This document shows positions 38,221-64,000 of a stretch of 64,000 bases of DNA, one piece after another (position 1 is the stretch's first letter; the number at the start of each line of letters is the position of its first letter). The notes under the pieces were generated by a model that made no database searches, had not been told where the DNA came from, and saw only the letters and a list, made by a program, of their open reading frames with translations. The stretch covers positions 1 through 64,000 of the forward strand of contig CAJOIP010000001.1 in NCBI GenBank assembly GCA_905234785.1. Direction: 5' to 3'. The translations under genes and the position numbers were made by a program. This stretch comes from an uncultured Eggerthellaceae bacterium. GTDB lineage: Bacteria > Actinomycetota > Coriobacteriia > Coriobacteriales > Eggerthellaceae.

Positions 38221-38244
38221 GAGAGGCTGGGTACGTATCCCACT

Positions 38245-38320
38245 GTCATCCCGAGCGAAGCGAGGGATCTCCGCGAAGCGGCGGGCAGAGCCCGAGATAC
38301 CTCGCTTCGCTCGGGATGAC
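38245..38320. repeat. dispersed palindromic element (GTCATCCCGAGCG type)
   Basis: The arms GTCATCCCGAGCGAAGCGAGG and its exact complement end a 76-base element located between the two GlfT-like genes. The same outer sequence bounds the element at 51982-52111 (with CCTGAGC) and forms the unit of the minisatellite at 41667-41918. It is noncoding and could act as a weak hairpin terminator. Confidence 0.85.
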
Positions 38321-38356
38321 AAAACAGCTTTATAGTTGGTTGTCCGAGGAGGGACG

Positions 38357-40463: not shown

Positions 40464-40562
40464 GATGCACCGGAGGGGAGCTGGTGCATCGTTTCGCAAG
40501 AAAGGCTCCGGGCTCCCTTGCACTCGCTGCAAAATGATGCACCAGCTCCCCTCCGGTGCATC
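40464..40562. repeat. perfect 27-bp inverted repeat (GATGCA-GGAGGGG family)
   Basis: The arms 40464-40490 and 40536-40562 are perfect complements around a 45-base centre; the outer sequence is GATGCACCGGAGGGGAGC. It starts 8 bases after a stop codon and is followed by GTTGTTTT, so it may terminate transcription. Related elements are at 41613-41650 and 53983-54067. Confidence 0.88.
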
Positions 40563-41612: not shown

Positions 41613-41655
41613 CCCCTCCCGCTGCATCGTGTGCGATGTAGCGGGAGGGGTTTTT
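41613..41655 (+). terminator. strong hairpin terminator (GATGCA-GGAGGGG family)
   Basis: A 17-bp stem (41613-41629 with 41634-41650, one G-T pair), a TGTG loop and TTTTT follow the unknown gene. The stem sequence (CCCCTCCCGCTGCATC) belongs to the same family as the inverted repeats at 40464 and 53983. Confidence 0.9.
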
Positions 41656-41666
41656 CTGTGCACATT

Positions 41667-41918
41667 GTCATCCCGAGCAAAGCGCGAGTGCATCCCCATG
41701 ACAACCCGAGCAAGGCGCGAGTGCATCCCCATGTCAACCCGAGCAAAGCGCGAGTGCATCCCCATGACAACCCGAGCAAGGCGCGAGTGCATCCCCATGT
41801 CAACCCGAGCAAGGCGCGAGTGCATCCCCATGTCATCCCGAGCGGAGCGCGAGTGCATCCCCATGTCAACCCGAGCAAGGCGCGAGTGCATCCCCATGTC
41901 ATCCCGAGCGGAGCGCGA
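41667..41918. repeat. 33-bp tandem repeat array (seven complete units plus a partial)
   Basis: Units start at 41667, 41700, 41733, 41766, 41799, 41832 and 41865, with a partial eighth at 41898. Each reads G(T/A)CA(A/T)CCCGAGC, then (A/G)(A/G)(A/G)GCGCGAGTGC and ATCCCCAT, with changes at only four or five positions. The beginning equals the outer arm of the palindromes at 38245 and 51982. Because 33 is divisible by three, all frames stay open and produce long false reading frames on both strands, such as MGMHSRLARVD. The array is noncoding. It lies between a terminator and glnA. Confidence 0.92.
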
Positions 41919-42050
41919 AGCGCGGAGTCGAGGGATCTCCCCCGTCACAACGGAGTAAACCCTCGCTTACGCCCGGTATGACATATGTGGGTCAATTCCA
42001 TCGTTAAAACTTCGTGAACAGGCTGCGGATGCGGCGTCGTTGGGCCTCGT

Positions 42051-50360: not shown

Positions 50361-50577
50361 AAGAAGGCCGCAGGTTTCGTTAACCCCGCAAGGGCGCATG
50401 CGCGGCAGCGCACAATTTCGAACAGAAGAAGGCTGCGGGTCCCGACAACCCCGTAGGGGCGCACTCCGTGCGCCCGCGCCCGAAGGGCGCATGCGCGACA
50501 GCGCATAATTTCGAATTGAAACGTGCCACCTTCGGCGGCGGGCGCACGGAGTGCGCCCCTACGGCTAACCTAAAGCG
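50361..50577. repeat. repeat-filled gap between convergent proB and proA, with 25-bp inverted repeat
   Basis: Two near-identical segments follow each other (AGAAGAAGGC, GCGCATGCGCG-CAGCGCA, AATTTCGAA). Perfect 25-bp arms at 50451-50475 and 50540-50564 (CCGTAGGGGCGCACTCCGTG, then CGCCC) bound a 114-base element. The same arm sequence occurs inside nadD (52784) and inside the transketolase gene (62202). It can fold in both transcripts and probably helps end both genes. Confidence 0.88.
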
Positions 50578-51864: not shown

Positions 51865-51981
51865 GGCCGGTCCTTTCGTTTGGCATTTCGGTCATTCTAC
51901 CGCACGCATCATGGACTTCGGGTGGTGGCCGGTTTTTCGCGGCGCCCATCTCTGCGATAATCACTACAGCTCATAGTATCT

Positions 51982-52111
51982 GTCATCCTGAGCGAAGCGC
52001 CAAAGGCGCGTAGTCGAAGGATCCCGGGCTCTGCCCGCTCAACCCGGGTAGCACGGGCAGAGCCCGAGATCCTTCGACTCCGGCGGCTGCGCCGCCTTCG
52101 CTCAGGATGAC
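51982..52111. repeat. 130-bp dispersed palindromic element (GTCATCCTGAGCG type)
   Basis: The outer arms GTCATCCTGAGCGAAG and CTTCGCTCAGGATGAC enclose nested complementary pieces (TAGTCGAAGGATC with GATCCTTCGACT; CGGGCTCTGCCCG with CGGGCAGAGCCCG). It lies in the divergent promoter gap between proA and nadD and ends 36 bases before nadD. It shares its ends with the element at 38245 and the minisatellite unit. Confidence 0.88.
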
Positions 52112-52147: not shown

Positions 52148-53500
52148 TTGGCGGTTATCAGCGAGCGATTCGACAGCTTGGGGGCAGGCGGCGCCCCGGC
52201 GAAGCTCGGGCTCATGGGCGGCACGTTCGACCCGATTCACAACGGGCACTTGCGCGTGGCCGAGGAAATGCGAGAGGCGCTCGACCTCGACGCCGTGCTG
52301 TTCATCCCCACGGGTGCGCCGGTGTTCAAGCGCGACCAAAACGTGACCGACCCCGAGGTGCGCTTCGCGAACGTGCGCGCGGCGGTGGCGGGCAACCCGC
52401 ATTTCGACGTCAGCCGCATCGAGATCGACCGCGAAGGTGACACGTTCACGGTCGACACGCTGCGCCAACTGCGCGAGCACTACCCCGAAAACGTCGAGTT
52501 CTACTTCATCGTCGGCTCCGACACGGCGGCGACGGTGGGGAAGTGGAAGGGCCGCGAGGAAATCGCGCAACTGGCGCACCTCGCCGTGGCGGTGGGCAGG
52601 CCCGGATCGGCCGACGCCGACGCGCTGCGCGAGGCGGTCATGGCTGCCGGCCCCTTCCAGTTGCACCTCGTGCGCGTGAGCGTCCTGGAAATCTCCTCAA
52701 CCGACATCCGCGAGCGCCTGGCGCAGGGAAAGTCGATTCGCTATTTCGTACCGGAGTCCATTGGAAAGAATCTTGCAGGTTATCCCGTAGGGGCGCACTC
52801 CGGGCGCCCGGAGTGCGCCGCTTCGGGAAAACCAGAGTCAGAAGACCCGCTTTCCAAGGCCTTCTTCAACGCGCGCAAAGCCGAGCTTGAGAAGCGCGTG
52901 TCCCCGAAGCGCTTCCAGCACAGCCTGGGCGTGTCGGACACGTGCGTTCAGCTGGCGAAGGAATACGGCCTCGACGTGAAGAAGGCGCGCTTGGCCGGCT
53001 TGCTTCACGATTGGGACAAAGGCTACGACGACGACCAGGCGCGCGCCCGCGTGCGCGAGCTTCACATGGAAGACGAGATCGACCCGTACATCGTCGAGCA
53101 GATGCCCGGCGTGCTTCATGGCATTACGGCGGCCCGCGCACTGGGGCAGGAGCTCCCGGGCATCCCCGCCGACATCTTGCAGGCCATCAGCCGCCACACC
53201 ACGGCGGCGCCCGACATGTCGCCGCTCGACATGGCGCTGTACATCGCCGACGCCATCGAACCGAACCGCCAGTTCGGGCGCATCGACGAGCTGCGGGCGG
53301 CCGTGGGTAGGGAAACGCTCGAGGAGCTGTACTTCCAAACCTATGAATATTGGGTTTTTCTGCTGTTCGAGCGCCGCAAGCCCTTGCACCCCGATACGAT
53401 AGCCATCTGGAACGCCTACACCGCGCGGCACCCCCGCAAGGGCAAGCGCGGCAACGGCGACGGCTCGGTTTCGGGCAAGAAGCACAAAGGAAAGAAATAA
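52148..53500 (+). CDS. nadD: fusion of nicotinate-nucleotide adenylyltransferase (NadD) and YqeK-type HD hydrolase
   Basis: A 450-residue protein. The N-terminal NadD domain (residues about 15-210: LGLMGGTFDPIHNGHL, FIPTGAPVFK, SRIEIDREGDTFTVDTL, ISSTDIRERL, YFVPESI) makes deamido-NAD. The C-terminal HD domain (about 245-420: RFQHSLGVSDTCVQLA, LAGLLHDWDKGY, ISRHTTA, DMALYIADAIEPNR) is the YqeK Ap4A hydrolase family, usually a separate downstream gene. The linker (about 212-240) contains a palindromic repeat encoding VGAHSGRPECA. The start is TTG at 52148 with GAGGCAAGGG upstream; no ATG fits before the catalytic loop. rsfS follows after 3 bases. Confidence 0.93.
   Translation: MAVISERFDSLGAGGAPAKLGLMGGTFDPIHNGHLRVAEEMREALDLDAVLFIPTGAPVFKRDQNVTDPEVRFANVRAAVAGNPHFDVSRIEIDREGDTFTVDTLRQLREHYPENVEFYFIVGSDTAATVGKWKGREEIAQLAHLAVAVGRPGSADADALREAVMAAGPFQLHLVRVSVLEISSTDIRERLAQGKSIRYFVPESIGKNLAGYPVGAHSGRPECAASGKPESEDPLSKAFFNARKAELEKRVSPKRFQHSLGVSDTCVQLAKEYGLDVKKARLAGLLHDWDKGYDDDQARARVRELHMEDEIDPYIVEQMPGVLHGITAARALGQELPGIPADILQAISRHTTAAPDMSPLDMALYIADAIEPNRQFGRIDELRAAVGRETLEELYFQTYEYWVFLLFERRKPLHPDTIAIWNAYTARHPRKGKRGNGDGSVSGKKHKGKK
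52784..52819. repeat. palindromic repeat inside the nadD-yqeK linker
   Basis: CCCGTAGGGGCGCACTCCGG is followed by a complementary half: 52792-52819 is a perfect 28-bp palindrome without loop. The first 18 or so bases match the arms of the proB-proA element. It is read in frame and adds a Gly/Ser/Pro-rich piece to the linker. Confidence 0.88.
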
Positions 53501-53971: not shown

Positions 53972-53982
53972 CGCACGGGAGC

Positions 53983-54067
53983 GATGCACGGGAGGGGGGC
54001 TACTGCATCATTTTGCAGGGAGGCTTCCATATGCCAAAATGATGCAGTAGCCCCCCTCCCGTGCATC
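53983..54067. repeat. perfect 33-bp inverted repeat (GATGCA-GGAGGGG family)
   Basis: The arms 53983-54015 and 54035-54067 are exact complements with a 19-base centre. It begins 11 bases after rsfS and can form a long RNA hairpin, so it probably separates rsfS from the regulator gene. The outer sequence GATGCACGGGAGGGGGGC resembles the elements at 40464 and 41613. Confidence 0.9.
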
Positions 54068-54189
54068 ATTCCGCAAGCAGTTGTGGGTGTTCGGCTGCGA
54101 ATCGCATATCTGGCAGCTTGCGCAGCGCGCGTTTCGTCCGTTACGATTAAGCTGACCAAAGCCTGAGTATTCCGCAAAAAGGAACGCTC

Positions 54190-59768: not shown

Positions 59769-59825
59769 GGGTGCAAAACCTCGAATCTCGAGCACTTAAT
59801 GTTCCAGATTTAAGGTTTTGCACCC
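59769..59825. repeat. palindromic repeat with GGGTGCAAAACC ends
   Basis: The 12-bp arms 59769-59780 and 59814-59825 are exact complements. Between them is ATGTTCCAGATT, the core of the tandem repeat that follows. Located 13 bases after secA, it probably forms the 3' end hairpin of the secA message. Confidence 0.8.
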
Positions 59826-59895
59826 GAGCGCTCGACTCCCGGATTCCGCGACCTGCGGAAACACCAAGCACATATGCGTTTCAAGCGACATTTCA

Positions 59896-60014
59896 GGTGC
59901 AAAACCCTGAATCTCGTGCATTCGATGTTCCAGATTGCAGGTTCTGCACCCCAGGATGTTCCAGATTGCGGGTTTTGCACCTCAGGATGTTCCAGATTGC
60001 GGGTTTTGCACCCC
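59896..60014. repeat. second GGTGCAAAACC palindrome expanded into 31-bp tandem repeats
   Basis: The left arm GGTGCAAAACC at 59896 pairs with the complementary ends of three right-hand units. A 31-bp unit (GATGTTCCAGATTGC, (G/A)GGTT(T/C)TGCACC) occurs three times with starts at 59924, 59955 and 59986. Only the right half of the palindrome has multiplied. Apparent short reading frames across it are artefacts. The region 59756-60077 holds nothing else. Confidence 0.85.
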
Positions 60015-60077: not shown

Positions 60078-61169
60078 TTACTGCGAGGCGCGCCATTTGT
60101 GGTAGGCGATCACGAAGTCGTCGATGTCGCCCGCCAAGACCGCATCGACGTTGCCGGTTTCGTGGTTGCTGCGCAGGTCCTTCACCATCTGGTAGGGATA
60201 CAGCACGTAGTTGCGTATCTGGCTGCCGAACGAGTTTTCCATGCGCTCGCCGCGCAGCTCGTCGATTTCGGCCTGGCGCTTCTGCTCTTCGAGCTCGTAT
60301 AGCTTGGCCTTCAGCACGCGGAAGGCGGCTTCCTTGTTCTGCAGCTGCGACTTCTGGTTCTGGCACGTTACGACGATGCCGGTGGGAATGTGCGTCAGTC
60401 GCACGGCCGAGTCGGTGGTGTTCACGCATTGGCCGCCGGGGCCGCTGGCGCGGAACACGTCGACGCGCACGTCGTTGGGGTCGAGGTCGACTTCGATGTC
60501 CTCGGGAAGCACCGGCAGAAGCTCGACGCTGGCGAACGTGGTGTGGCGGCGCGCCTTGGCGTCGGTCGGCGAGATGCGCACCAGGCGGTGCACGCCGATT
60601 TCCGAGCGCAGCATACCGTAAGCGTTGCGGCCTTCGAACTGGATGGTGGCGCGGTCGATGCCGATGCCCTCGGCGTACGTGATGTCGAGTACGTGAACCT
60701 TCCAGCCCTTCGACTCGCCGTAGTGCGAGTACATCTTGAAGAGCATGTCGGCCCAGTCGTTGGCCTCAAGGCCGCCCTGGCCGGGGTTCACCGTGAGGAT
60801 GGCGTCGCCTTCGTCGAACTGGCCTGTGAACCACGACGACAGCTCGAGCGCATCGAGCATGCCCGACAGCCGCTCGCACGCATCGGCGGCTTCCTCGGCG
60901 AAGGCCTCGTCCTCGCCCGCCAGCTCGAAGGCCGTTTGGGCGTCGGAAAAGAGCTGTGCCGCCTCGTCGTATTCGCGAATGGTGTCGCGCAGGTTGCCCG
61001 CCCGCTTCGAGACGGCCTGCGCATGCGCCGTGTCGTCCCAGAAGCCGGGACGGGCCGTTTCCTCGTCGAGCTTCGCCAGCTCGGCCGTTTTCTCGTCGAG
61101 GTGCAGGTAGGCGCGCGCGTCGGTTACGCGTTGTCCCAGCTGCTCGATTGTCTTCGCGTCGATTTCCAC
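60078..61169 (-). CDS. prfB: peptide chain release factor 2, with S-P-T recognition tripeptide
   Basis: A 363-residue class I release factor. RF2 identity is shown by RPGFWDD, GGLEANDWADMLFKMY, the N-terminal helical domain and overall length. The catalytic GGQ is present (SGPGGQCVNTTDSAVR). The stop-reading loop is VRISPTDAKARRHTT: the usual RF2 S-P-F is S-P-T here (codons TCG CCG ACC). There is no in-frame TGA near codon 25, so the frameshift autoregulation of many RF2 genes is absent. The start is GTG at 61169, with no ribosome site; TATCAT on this strand ends 8 bases before it, suggesting a leaderless message. It is convergent with secA and divergent from the transketolase gene. Confidence 0.95.
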   Translation of the reverse strand: MEIDAKTIEQLGQRVTDARAYLHLDEKTAELAKLDEETARPGFWDDTAHAQAVSKRAGNLRDTIREYDEAAQLFSDAQTAFELAGEDEAFAEEAADACERLSGMLDALELSSWFTGQFDEGDAILTVNPGQGGLEANDWADMLFKMYSHYGESKGWKVHVLDITYAEGIGIDRATIQFEGRNAYGMLRSEIGVHRLVRISPTDAKARRHTTFASVELLPVLPEDIEVDLDPNDVRVDVFRASGPGGQCVNTTDSAVRLTHIPTGIVVTCQNQKSQLQNKEAAFRVLKAKLYELEEQKRQAEIDELRGERMENSFGSQIRNYVLYPYQMVKDLRSNHETGNVDAVLAGDIDDFVIAYHKWRASQ

Positions 61170-61177
61170 AGAGAACT

Positions 61178-61183
61178 ATGATA
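61178..61183 (-). promoter_or_regulatory. -10 element TATCAT, probable leaderless promoter of prfB
   Basis: TATCAT on the minus strand is 8 bases from the GTG start codon and an in-frame TAG lies within it, so translation cannot begin further upstream. Spacing equals that before the ABC permease gene. Confidence 0.5.
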
Positions 61184-61354
61184 ACGCAGAATGCGGGTTT
61201 GGAATCGAAACAGGAAGTTTGGCCCGCATCGCGATTTCTCTGCGAGAAAAGGGGTCTCGCCCATTGCTCGTTTCGAACCTGCGAAAAGAACGCGAAGCAC
61301 CACACACGCACACTATTCCTTGGTACAATGGGCATCCTGAGAGAAAGGTGCTCC

Positions 61355-63277
61355 ATGAGCGTGGAAATGCTGACAAAAACTGCCAATGACCTGCGGATAA
61401 GCATCGTGAAGATGATTGCCGAGGCAGGCAGCGGACATCCGGGTGGTTCCCTTTCATGCGCCGACATCATGACGGCGCTTTATTTTGGGGGCGTGCTGGA
61501 ACACGACCCCGCCAACGCCGAGTCTCCGCGCGACCGTTTCATCCTGGCGAAGGGCCATGCGGCGCCGGCTCTGTACGCCGCGCTCGCGCATGCGGGCTAC
61601 TTCCCGGTCGATGAGCTCATGACGCTGCGCAAGTTCGGCTCGCGACTGCAGGGCCATCCCGATTGCAACTTGCTGCCGGGCGTCGAGGTTTCCACCGGCT
61701 CGCTCGGCCAGGGCCTTTCCATCGCGTCGGGCTTAGCTGCGGGCTTGCGCCTGGAAGGCGACGATCACACGGTGTTCGCGCTTCTGGGCGACGGCGAATG
61801 CCAGGAAGGCCAGGTGTGGGAGGCGGCCATGTTCGCCGCGCACCAGGGCCTCGACAACCTGGTTGCCATCGTCGACCGCAACTGCCTGCAGATCGACGGC
61901 AACACGGCCGACGTGTGCGACCCGGGCGATTTGGGCGCGAAGTTCGCCGCGTTCGGGTGGGAAACCTCCGAGGTCGACGGCCACGACATCACCGCCGTCA
62001 TCGAAACGCTGAACGCTGCGAAGGCCGCCCGCACGGGCAAGCCCCAGGCCATCATCGCCCGCACCGTGAAGGGCAAGGGCGTCTCGTTCATGGAAGACCA
62101 AGCTGGCTGGCACGGCAAGGCGCCGAACGCCGAGCAGCTCGCCCAGGCGTTGGAAGATCTGGGCTGCAAGCCGGATAATGACGGAGATGGTTTGGCCGTT
62201 TCCGCAGGGGCGCACTCCGAGCGCCCGGTGAGCGAAGCGAGTTTCGATAAGGCTGCGACTGATTCGCTGTCGCAGCCATCTGCGAGCGCGGCAAGCAGCG
62301 CCGGGCGCACGGTGTGTGCCCCTACGGGCGATTCTTCCAAGAAGGCCACCCGCGCAGCATACGGCGTCACCCTTGCCGAGCTTGCCGACGAAGGTCTTCC
62401 CATCGTAGCGGTCGAAGCCGATCTGTCCGGCTCCACCACGACCGCAAAGTTCGCGTCAGCAAAGCCCGAATACGCCAAGCGGCTGTTCAACTGCGGCATC
62501 GCCGAGCAGAACATGACCGATGTGGCGGCGGGCTTGGCACTCGCGGGCAACATCGCCTTCACCGGCAGCTTCGCCGTGTTCGGCACGGGCCGCGCGTACG
62601 ACCAGATCCGCAATACGGTGTGCTATTCCAACCTGAACGTGAAAATCGCCCCGACGCACGCGGGCATCTCGGTCGGTCCCGACGGCGGCAGCCACCAAAT
62701 GCTCGAGGACATCTCGCTCATGCGCGGGCTTCCCAACATGCGCGTGCTCGTGCCCGCCGATTATGCGTCGGCTGCGGGCGCCATCCGCTTGGCGGCCACC
62801 ACGCCGGGCCCGGTGTACGTGCGCATGGGCCGCGAATCGGTGCCCTGCGTGTATGCCGACGGTACCGAGCTTCAGCTCGGCGGCTCCTTCCAGTTGCGCG
62901 AAGGCGCCGACGCCACCATCGTCGCCTGCGGTCTCGAGGTGCGTGAAGCGCTCATTGCCGCCGACCAGCTTGCCGAAGAGGGCATCTCGGTCGACCTCAT
63001 CGACGCCTACAGCGTGAAACCGCTCGACGCGCAGGCCATCGTCGCCTCGGTTGCCAAGACCGGTTGCGCCGTCACGGCCGAAGAGCACAGCGTGTACGGC
63101 GGCCTGGGTTCCGCCGTCGCCGAGCTGTTGTCTGCCGAGCACCCGGCGCCTGTCGAGTTCGTCGGCATGCACGACAAGTTCGGCAAGTCCGGCGGATATG
63201 CCGAGCTATCTGCGCACTTCAAGATGGATGCGGCTGCGATTGCTGATGCTGTGAAGAGGGTTATCGCCCGTAAATAG
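61355..63277 (+). CDS. tkt: transketolase, single chain with repeat-derived linker
   Basis: A 640-residue thiamine-diphosphate enzyme of the pentose phosphate pathway. The N half (residues 1-275: GSGHPGGSLSCADIM, ILAKGHAAPALY, TGSLGQGLSIASGLA, LLGDGECQEGQVWEAA with the TPP-binding GDG...N) and the C half (about 325-640: GIAEQNMTDVAAGLALAG, HAGISVGPDGGSHQMLED, YVRMGRESVP, AEEHSVYGGLGSAV) correspond to the split-type transketolase subunits of many anaerobes, here joined. The joint (residues about 283-325) is encoded by a 126-base palindromic element. AAAGGTG precedes the ATG at 61355; an in-frame ATG at 61328 lacks a site. Confidence 0.94.
   Translation: MSVEMLTKTANDLRISIVKMIAEAGSGHPGGSLSCADIMTALYFGGVLEHDPANAESPRDRFILAKGHAAPALYAALAHAGYFPVDELMTLRKFGSRLQGHPDCNLLPGVEVSTGSLGQGLSIASGLAAGLRLEGDDHTVFALLGDGECQEGQVWEAAMFAAHQGLDNLVAIVDRNCLQIDGNTADVCDPGDLGAKFAAFGWETSEVDGHDITAVIETLNAAKAARTGKPQAIIARTVKGKGVSFMEDQAGWHGKAPNAEQLAQALEDLGCKPDNDGDGLAVSAGAHSERPVSEASFDKAATDSLSQPSASAASSAGRTVCAPTGDSSKKATRAAYGVTLAELADEGLPIVAVEADLSGSTTTAKFASAKPEYAKRLFNCGIAEQNMTDVAAGLALAGNIAFTGSFAVFGTGRAYDQIRNTVCYSNLNVKIAPTHAGISVGPDGGSHQMLEDISLMRGLPNMRVLVPADYASAAGAIRLAATTPGPVYVRMGRESVPCVYADGTELQLGGSFQLREGADATIVACGLEVREALIAADQLAEEGISVDLIDAYSVKPLDAQAIVASVAKTGCAVTAEEHSVYGGLGSAVAELLSAEHPAPVEFVGMHDKFGKSGGYAELSAHFKMDAAAIADAVKRVIARK
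62202..62327. repeat. 126-bp palindromic element inside the transketolase gene
   Basis: The arms 62202-62228 (CCGCAGGGGCGCACTCCGAG, then CGCCCGG) and 62301-62327 are complementary at 23 of 27 positions. A nested perfect 9-bp pair (GGCTGCGAC / GTCGCAGCC) lies between them. The arms match the proB-proA element. The length is exactly 42 codons, open in the coding frame, giving a Ser/Ala-rich linker (AGAHSERP ... AGRTVCAPTG). Confidence 0.88.
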
Positions 63278-63330
63278 GTCTGGTAGAATCAGCTTCGTCT
63301 CAGTAAACGACTATTTGAACGGAGCATTCT

Positions 63331-64000
63331 GTGACAGAAGCCACCAACCAGGGGGCTCGGCAGCCGTATCAGGCGGCTGCAACTCAGACGATGCGATCGG
63401 CTCCCGACCTTTCAACGGCGCTGCCTTCGCTGGAAGTCGACGATATCCCCCAGCAGGGAACCCCCGTCATTGCGTTCGACCGCGTGTCGAAGGTGTATCC
63501 GGCCCAGCCTAACCGCCCGGCGCTCGAGAACATCTCGCTGCAGATTTACCCTGGCGAGTTCGTGTTCCTCGTCGGCCATTCCGGTTCGGGCAAATCAACG
63601 CTTGTGCGCCTGATCATCCGCGAGCTGCGCCCCAGCTCGGGCACCATCACCATCGCCAACGAAGACCTGGGCAGCATGCGCAACTGGCGCGTGCCGTACC
63701 TGCGCCGCAACATCGGCTGCGTGTTCCAGGACTTCAAGCTGCTGCCGAACAAGACGGTCTACGAGAACGTCGCGTTCGCGCTCGAGGTAATCGGCAAGAA
63801 CCGCAACGTCATCCGCACGCAGGTGCCCGAGGTCCTGCGCCTGGTCGGCCTGCAGGACAAGCTCGACAAGCTGCCCGACCAGCTGTCCGGCGGCGAGGCC
63901 CAGCGCGTTTCCATCGCGCGTGCCATCGTCAACCGCCCGCCGCTGCTCGTGTGCGACGAGCCCACCGGCAACCTCGACCCGCAGACGTCGCGCGGCATCA
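63331..64000 (+). CDS. ftsE: cell division ATP-binding protein FtsE (3' end outside window)
   Basis: 223 codons are visible. After a low-complexity N-terminal extension of about 45 residues, unusual for FtsE, comes the ABC domain: [23 protein letters not shown], Walker [34 protein letters not shown], signature [16 protein letters not shown] and Walker [14 protein letters not shown]. FtsE with FtsX regulates peptidoglycan hydrolases at the division site. The start is GTG at 63331 with CGGAGC upstream. ftsX is expected just beyond the window. Confidence 0.93.

Follow-up and report, generated by a model that had tools for sequence, protein, structure and literature searches.

A GTAG-class REP doublet lies in frame in the linker of a fused transketolase, with related copies in other conserved genes, in an uncultured Eggerthellaceae bacterium

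REPs of the GTAG class combine a GTAG tag with a short GC palindrome (PMC3733652), and inverted doublets of REPs are known as REPINs (PMC3116915). A 2013 study described GTAG REPs in frame, both single and dimeric, and proposed that flexible linkers tolerate them; intragenic copies of the class were most abundant in O. terrae (PMC3733652). In Pseudomonas fluorescens SBW25, almost all REPIN copies are extragenic, with 14 of 1,067 16-mers overlapping genes (PMC3116915). Two of the Rickettsia palindromic elements (RPE), RPE-4 and RPE-6, have been counted among the CGTC repeats (PMC3733652). Here, we examine a repeat family of this general kind in an uncultured Eggerthellaceae bacterium (GCA_905234785.1; here G000), starting from a 64,000-nucleotide (nt) stretch of its DNA that we refer to as the window. 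The source genome is a metagenome-assembled genome (MAG) of 2.26 Mb that is 97% complete and gives no sign of local misassembly.

The window carries a tkt gene (61355 to 63277, plus strand) that encodes a fused transketolase of 640 amino acids, consisting of an N half, a linker, and a C half in one open frame and matching transketolase models in both Pfam and NCBIfam. Pfam places Transketolase_N at residues 8 to 275, Transket_pyr at 329 to 497, and Transketolase_C at 514 to 629. An earlier note on this DNA had described 126 bases, exactly 42 codons, between the two halves, bounded by arms like those of elements at proB-proA and nadD and containing nested hairpins, and each of these points held up on analysis. 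The element (62202 to 62327, plus strand) is in the single tkt frame and encodes the peptide SAGAHSERPVSEASFDKAATDSLSQPSASAASSAGRTVCAPTG. Its left arm (62202 to 62227, plus strand) reads CC-GCAG-GGGCGCAC-TCC-GAGCGCCC-G, and its right arm (62302 to 62327), in the opposite orientation, reads GTAG-GGGCACAC-ACC-GTGCGCCC on the minus strand. Each arm is thus a G(T/C)AG tag with an 8-bp GC stem, the two facing each other, and they match the copies at 50451 to 50564 (proB-proA spacer) and 52785 to 52811 (within nadD-yqeK) at 88 to 96%. An inner hairpin with a perfect 9-bp stem, GGCTGCGAC / GTCGCAGCC, is nested in the spacer (62251 to 62277, plus strand).

The whole element folds end to end as one long hairpin, both as DNA (-47.8 kcal/mol, z -5.9) and as RNA (-80.8 kcal/mol, z -6.0), and none of 200 shuffles folded as well. 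Two inverted REPs around a spacer, forming one hairpin with a z of about -6, make this element a REPIN. An Rfam search of window positions 61000 to 63600 returned no match up to an E value of 1, and a reading as an RNA family was rejected on this result. Because its left arm is degenerate, with GCAG in place of GTAG and one stem mismatch, we regard the tkt element as a somewhat decayed copy. In vitro, a Stenotrophomonas enzyme barely cut a GCAG tag (PMC8266576), and by analogy the tkt copy may therefore no longer be mobile.

The earlier note had named a low genomic copy number as a finding that would count against its reading, and the opposite was found: GTAGGGGCGC occurs 97 times in G000, versus 17 times for the reversed control pattern. 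Within the window, there are 5 REP hairpins with the GGGGCGC core, versus 0 in 40 dinucleotide shuffles. Stretches sampled around matches to the core 12-mer, a procedure that misses any copy whose 12-mer carries more than one change, contained 82 hairpin units grouped into 58 single or doublet elements. These range from 52 to 144 nt; about half are single units standing alone, and 66-nt doublets are frequent. Nearly all 82 units carry GTAG, with GCAG in the tkt left arm as a variant. Stems are 8 to 9 bp and loops 2 to 3 nt, and the stem variants GCGCAC/GTGCGC, GCGCTC/GAGCGC, GCGCAGA/TCTGCGC, GCGCGAT/ATCGCGC, and GCGCAAT/ATTGCGC are compensatory between subfamilies, so the hairpin structure has been maintained. 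With GTAG at the palindrome end, a short GC-rich stem, and a high copy number, the family belongs to the GTAG-class REPs, and extragenic copies predominate (about 43 of the 58 elements are not in frame in any recognized gene). One intergenic example is the 114-nt REPIN between proB and proA (50451 to 50564). Where the window has this REPIN, the relative G004 has unrelated sequence; that spacer (L250, G004:C169:6500-10000, about 2075 to 2260) holds a different long inverted repeat of the AGGACGTTCCTG... type.

The window contains further repeats. Between secA and prfB (59770 to 60014) are 31-nt repeats, GATGTTCCAGATTGCRGGTTYTGCACCC, in tandem and inverted arrangement. A second family comprises tandem 33-nt repeats at 41633 to 41951, together with 38244 to 38321 and 51974 to 52105, and is related to palindromic TGTCATCCCGAGCGAAGCG elements in the window. 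A third, palindromic family is represented by two copies, at 40464 to 40562 and 53978 to 54072, of a long inverted repeat whose arms are of the GATGCACCGGAGGGG type.

The same REP core is expanded in G008, a congener (271 copies versus 19 for the control), in G004 (60 versus 14), and in G079 (107 versus 23), while most other relatives have it at the control level. In G079, a complete genome of the same family and another genus (L258-L287), many of the approximately 107 copies have an identical spacing of 94 nt. G008 also encodes a 173-amino-acid Y1 transposase for which the best NCBIfam model is that of the REP-associated tyrosine transposase (RAYT), NF047646, at 79.6 bits (cutoff, 80), and which matches the structure of TnpArep (PDB 4er8). 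REPs of the same family lie on both flanks of this gene (L159), the only one among the Y1 transposases fetched from relatives with these REPs nearby. Searches of G000 with PF01797, NF047646, and the G008 protein as queries found neither a RAYT nor any other Y1 transposase; in a MAG with 97% completeness, this is not proof of absence. G079 likewise has no recognizable RAYT despite its 107 copies and complete genome. We infer that the REPs of G000 were mobilized by a RAYT.

Of the 58 sampled elements, about 15 are in frame within conserved genes, namely tkt and about a dozen others, and the remaining 43 or so are not, which bears out the earlier suggestion that coding insertions form a pattern and not a chance occurrence. 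The second coding copy that had been proposed within the window is also real and also in a linker, although it is not a 126-nt doublet. It consists of a single REP unit (52785 to 52811) with a short palindromic partner (together 52785 to 52833, plus strand), encodes the peptide PVGAHSGRPE, and lies in the linker between the NadD and YqeK parts of a fused gene of 450 amino acids (52148 to 53500, plus strand) that matches Pfam CTP_transf_like and HD and the NCBIfam nadD and YqeK models.

As a group, the in-frame copies fall in linkers and tails. DnaX has a 144-nt copy in the linker region behind domain III. HypF has two, the first (126 nt) between the zinc fingers and the YrdC domain and the second between the YrdC and Kae1-like domains. 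In Elp3, a 66-nt copy lies within the radical-SAM region, in a part that is variable, and the copy in MurF is between recognized ligase parts. Two units are found in the N-tail of MenG, and N-tails also hold copies in GrpE and HypD; the copies in MetA and XseB are in C-tails. Further in-frame copies are present in a U32/DUF3656 protein and in a coproporphyrinogen oxidase-like (CPO-like) protein. Finally, a 131-amino-acid protein with a single membrane span and no assigned family (L182:1814-2206; L312 near 3993) has a REP-derived, repeat-rich N-tail in G000; its G008 homologue has a REP in the same tail. Under a uniform and strict automatic rule, 9 of 58 elements in G000 are internal to genes, whereas G008 has 1 of 45 and G079 has 0 of 17 (Fisher p 0.007), a contrast that is suggestive only, because the codon scores were trained on window genes and other genomes may be undercounted. 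With 1 of 45 and 0 of 17 internal copies in these two genomes, we rejected the idea that coding REPs are a general property of the family.

These insertions also show a reading-frame bias. Read from the GTAG side, the repeat is open in two frames, and TAG closes the third. Of 13 in-frame elements read from this side, with frames assigned by eye, 12 use the Val-Gly-Ala frame and 1, in MurF, uses the Arg-Arg-Gly frame (binomial p 0.003). This bias likely reflects selection favoring small neutral residues over an Arg-rich peptide.

The in-frame sites compared with the same genes in sister species were those in tkt, nadD-yqeK, menG, hypD, hypF, metA, elp3, grpE, the CPO-like gene, and the U32 gene. 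Among relatives in this genus group, those with names are MAGs of uncultured Eggerthellaceae, from ruminants and from roe deer. Most inserts are absent from the sister species, and the sites in menG, hypD, hypF, metA, elp3, grpE, and the CPO-like gene are polymorphic in the manner of a REPIN/RAYT system. The 162-nt insert in menG is absent in G004, G002, and G005. A 20-mer of host sequence, GATTGACACGGCGACTGGCA, occurs once in G004 and three times in G000 (the third with one change at the first base), around two 81-nt units, which has the appearance of a tandem duplication of the 81-nt unit. HypD of sister species lacks the 22-residue insert behind Met-Ala, and the hypD site has no target-site duplication. 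The first HypF insert is absent in all five relatives compared. At the second HypF site (L206, residues approximately 450 to 477), G000 and G004 share an older REP remnant, SVGTRFIAPA, and an adjoining newer unit is present only in G000; to judge from these sequences, one linker has received insertions repeatedly. In sister species, no insert is present in MetA, Elp3, GrpE, or the CPO-like protein, and the U32 insert is common to G000 and G004 and absent in G002 and G005. Some of the compared regions are variable in any case; the clean empty sites are those in menG, hypD, and metA.

The position of the tkt element raises the question as to whether it made the fusion that it now occupies, as the earlier note had suggested. 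Outside the genus, tkt is split at all Eggerthellaceae loci examined. (In Raoultibacter timonensis, L107 3001-5632, the tkt N half is seemingly interrupted by secA sequence with an N nearby, probably a scaffold misjoin.) Within the genus, tkt is fused in ten genomes and split in three. The linker scan for GTAG/GCAG hairpins, in which the G006 motif was not found, identified none in the fused linkers of all nine other congeners, nor in any split junction scanned. A weak hairpin in the G002 linker (z -2.1, no GTAG unit) was considered as a REP remnant from an earlier time and rejected. The nine congeners, with REP-free fused linkers of similar length, are of the kind that had been named in advance as telling against a creative role, and the claim that the element created the fusion is not borne out. 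The single observation in its favor comes from the nearest relative: G004, with 98% N-half and 94% C-half identity, has a split and element-free tkt. On the tree, the window tkt groups with split G004/L041 (support, 100/98), and both group with fused G002 and G005. The fused and split states require about four changes on this tree, so the fused state is either older or recurrent. The nadD-yqeK gene provides a second case, being fused without a REP in 5 of 5 relatives. Because tkt and nadD-yqeK are both fused in relatives that have no REP at these points, the element was not needed for either fusion, and two REP-filled fusion points are not evidence for element-made fusions.

It is nonetheless conceivable that since the split from the sister species the REPIN landed across the stop and start of two adjacent tkt genes, removing or reading through both and joining the frames with a stop-free linker, which would make a selfish hairpin element the cause of a gene fusion. 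Consistent with this, the closest relative is split and element-free, the old start region VKLASPEQAQQ is missing in the window exactly at the position of the element, and a GGAG...ATGG remnant lies out of frame about 13 nt upstream. We consider this origin unlikely. Apart from the nine fused congeners, the four or so changes on the tree, and a nadD-yqeK fusion that predates the arrival of its REP, the next nearest relatives, G002 and G005, have a fused tkt in which, as in the window, an Asp codon stands three residues ahead of KKATRA (D-L-P / D-M-P / D-S-S). In addition, identity between the window and G004 is only 72 to 78% over the initial 120 nt of the C half, compared to 90 to 94% for the remainder, and the window residues at the start of the C half resemble those of fused G005. 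This anomalously divergent junction and G005-like tract indicate that the split state of G004 probably arose via recombination. From these alignments, local replacement of the junction is the likeliest account, with G004 as its probable site; the split junction cannot be aligned base by base, and the empty site at tkt is thus not a clean one.

A separate issue is what the insert does in the protein. An AlphaFold model of the tkt product, built with 46 rows, has a pLDDT of 88 and a pTM of 0.89 and matches solved transketolases, the best PDB match being human transketolase (3ooy). Its only stretch with a pLDDT below 50, residues 276 to 317, nearly matches the part that the REPIN encodes, residues 283 to 325. 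The model thus predicts that the REPIN-encoded insert is most likely a disordered linker. Alternatively, the C half might also be made separately, from an internal start just before the element, with the REPIN hairpin in the mRNA tuning the balance between fused and separate products. A Shine-Dalgarno-like GGAG is followed at 5-nt spacing by an in-frame TTG (62192) directly before the element (62183 to 62194, plus strand), which on a reading of the sequence could be a start of the C half, either vestigial or alternative; the RNA hairpin is very stable; and the split layout of relatives means that the halves are able to work apart. However, TTG is weak as a start, GGAG is short enough to occur by chance, the other in-frame copies lack such a signal pattern, and without a stop between the halves at least some of the long product must be made. 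We judge such an internal start to be quite improbable. Less probable still, in our estimation very unlikely, is that the repeats represent MITEs belonging to a DDE insertion sequence instead of REPs mobilized by a RAYT. Long terminal inverted repeats, an element length of 52 to 144 nt, and a G000 genome without a RAYT would all suit MITEs. Yet every arm is a GTAG-tagged palindrome in its own right and units stand alone in about half of the elements, features that fit REPs and not MITE ends, and both the hypD site, where no target-site duplication was seen, and the REP-flanked RAYT of G008 weigh against that origin.

Taken together, these findings make it quite probable that the REPIN inserted in frame into the flexible linker of a tkt gene, and most likely one that had been fused beforehand. 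A RAYT would act on single-stranded hairpins and thereby mobilize the REPs, and a REPIN would have landed in the existing linker that connects the two tkt halves. Selection would remove most REP insertions into genes. The genic copies that survive would be those that keep the frame, avoid the frame containing TAG, and place their peptide (typically PVGAHS..., ...CAPTG) in disordered linkers, loops, or tails that can tolerate it. The tkt insert would thereafter serve as a linker and nothing more. On this evidence, proteins of G000 would carry pieces of selfish DNA in their flexible parts. New protein sequence rarely arises from selfish DNA within proteins, and this source has been little tested. 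Here there are about a dozen in-frame cases, and for most of them a close relative has the empty site, so one can directly ask what kinds of insertion are tolerated by proteins, in which frame, and with or without functional change.

Our literature searches turned up nothing relevant on REPs in Eggerthella and, using those phrases, no paper on split or fused transketolase. Like the RPEs, the G000 elements are palindromic repeats that occur in frame within many conserved genes for proteins; they differ in occurring in another phylum and in having a GTAG tag, as opposed to the CGTC class of RPE-4 and RPE-6, a distinction that is based on the description of the tags. The REPIN/RAYT system of SBW25 (PMC3116915) shares with them the inverted doublet and spacer as a unit and the REP-flanked cognate RAYT, which here is found in a congener. 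Unlike in SBW25, about a quarter of the sampled elements are coding, and a RAYT was not found in G000 itself. The closest likeness is to the GTAG REPs of PMC3733652, with which these elements share the GTAG tag, the GC palindrome, the in-frame occurrence within conserved genes as single units and as inverted dimers, and repeat-flanked RAYT genes. The text of that paper does not name Eggerthella, Slackia, Gordonibacter, or Actinobacteria; the hosts here are metabolic and housekeeping genes, and orthologous empty sites in sister species date the insertions. In-frame GTAG REPs as such have therefore been known since 2013, and what stands out here is their unusual density and the resolution that empty sites in sister species provide.
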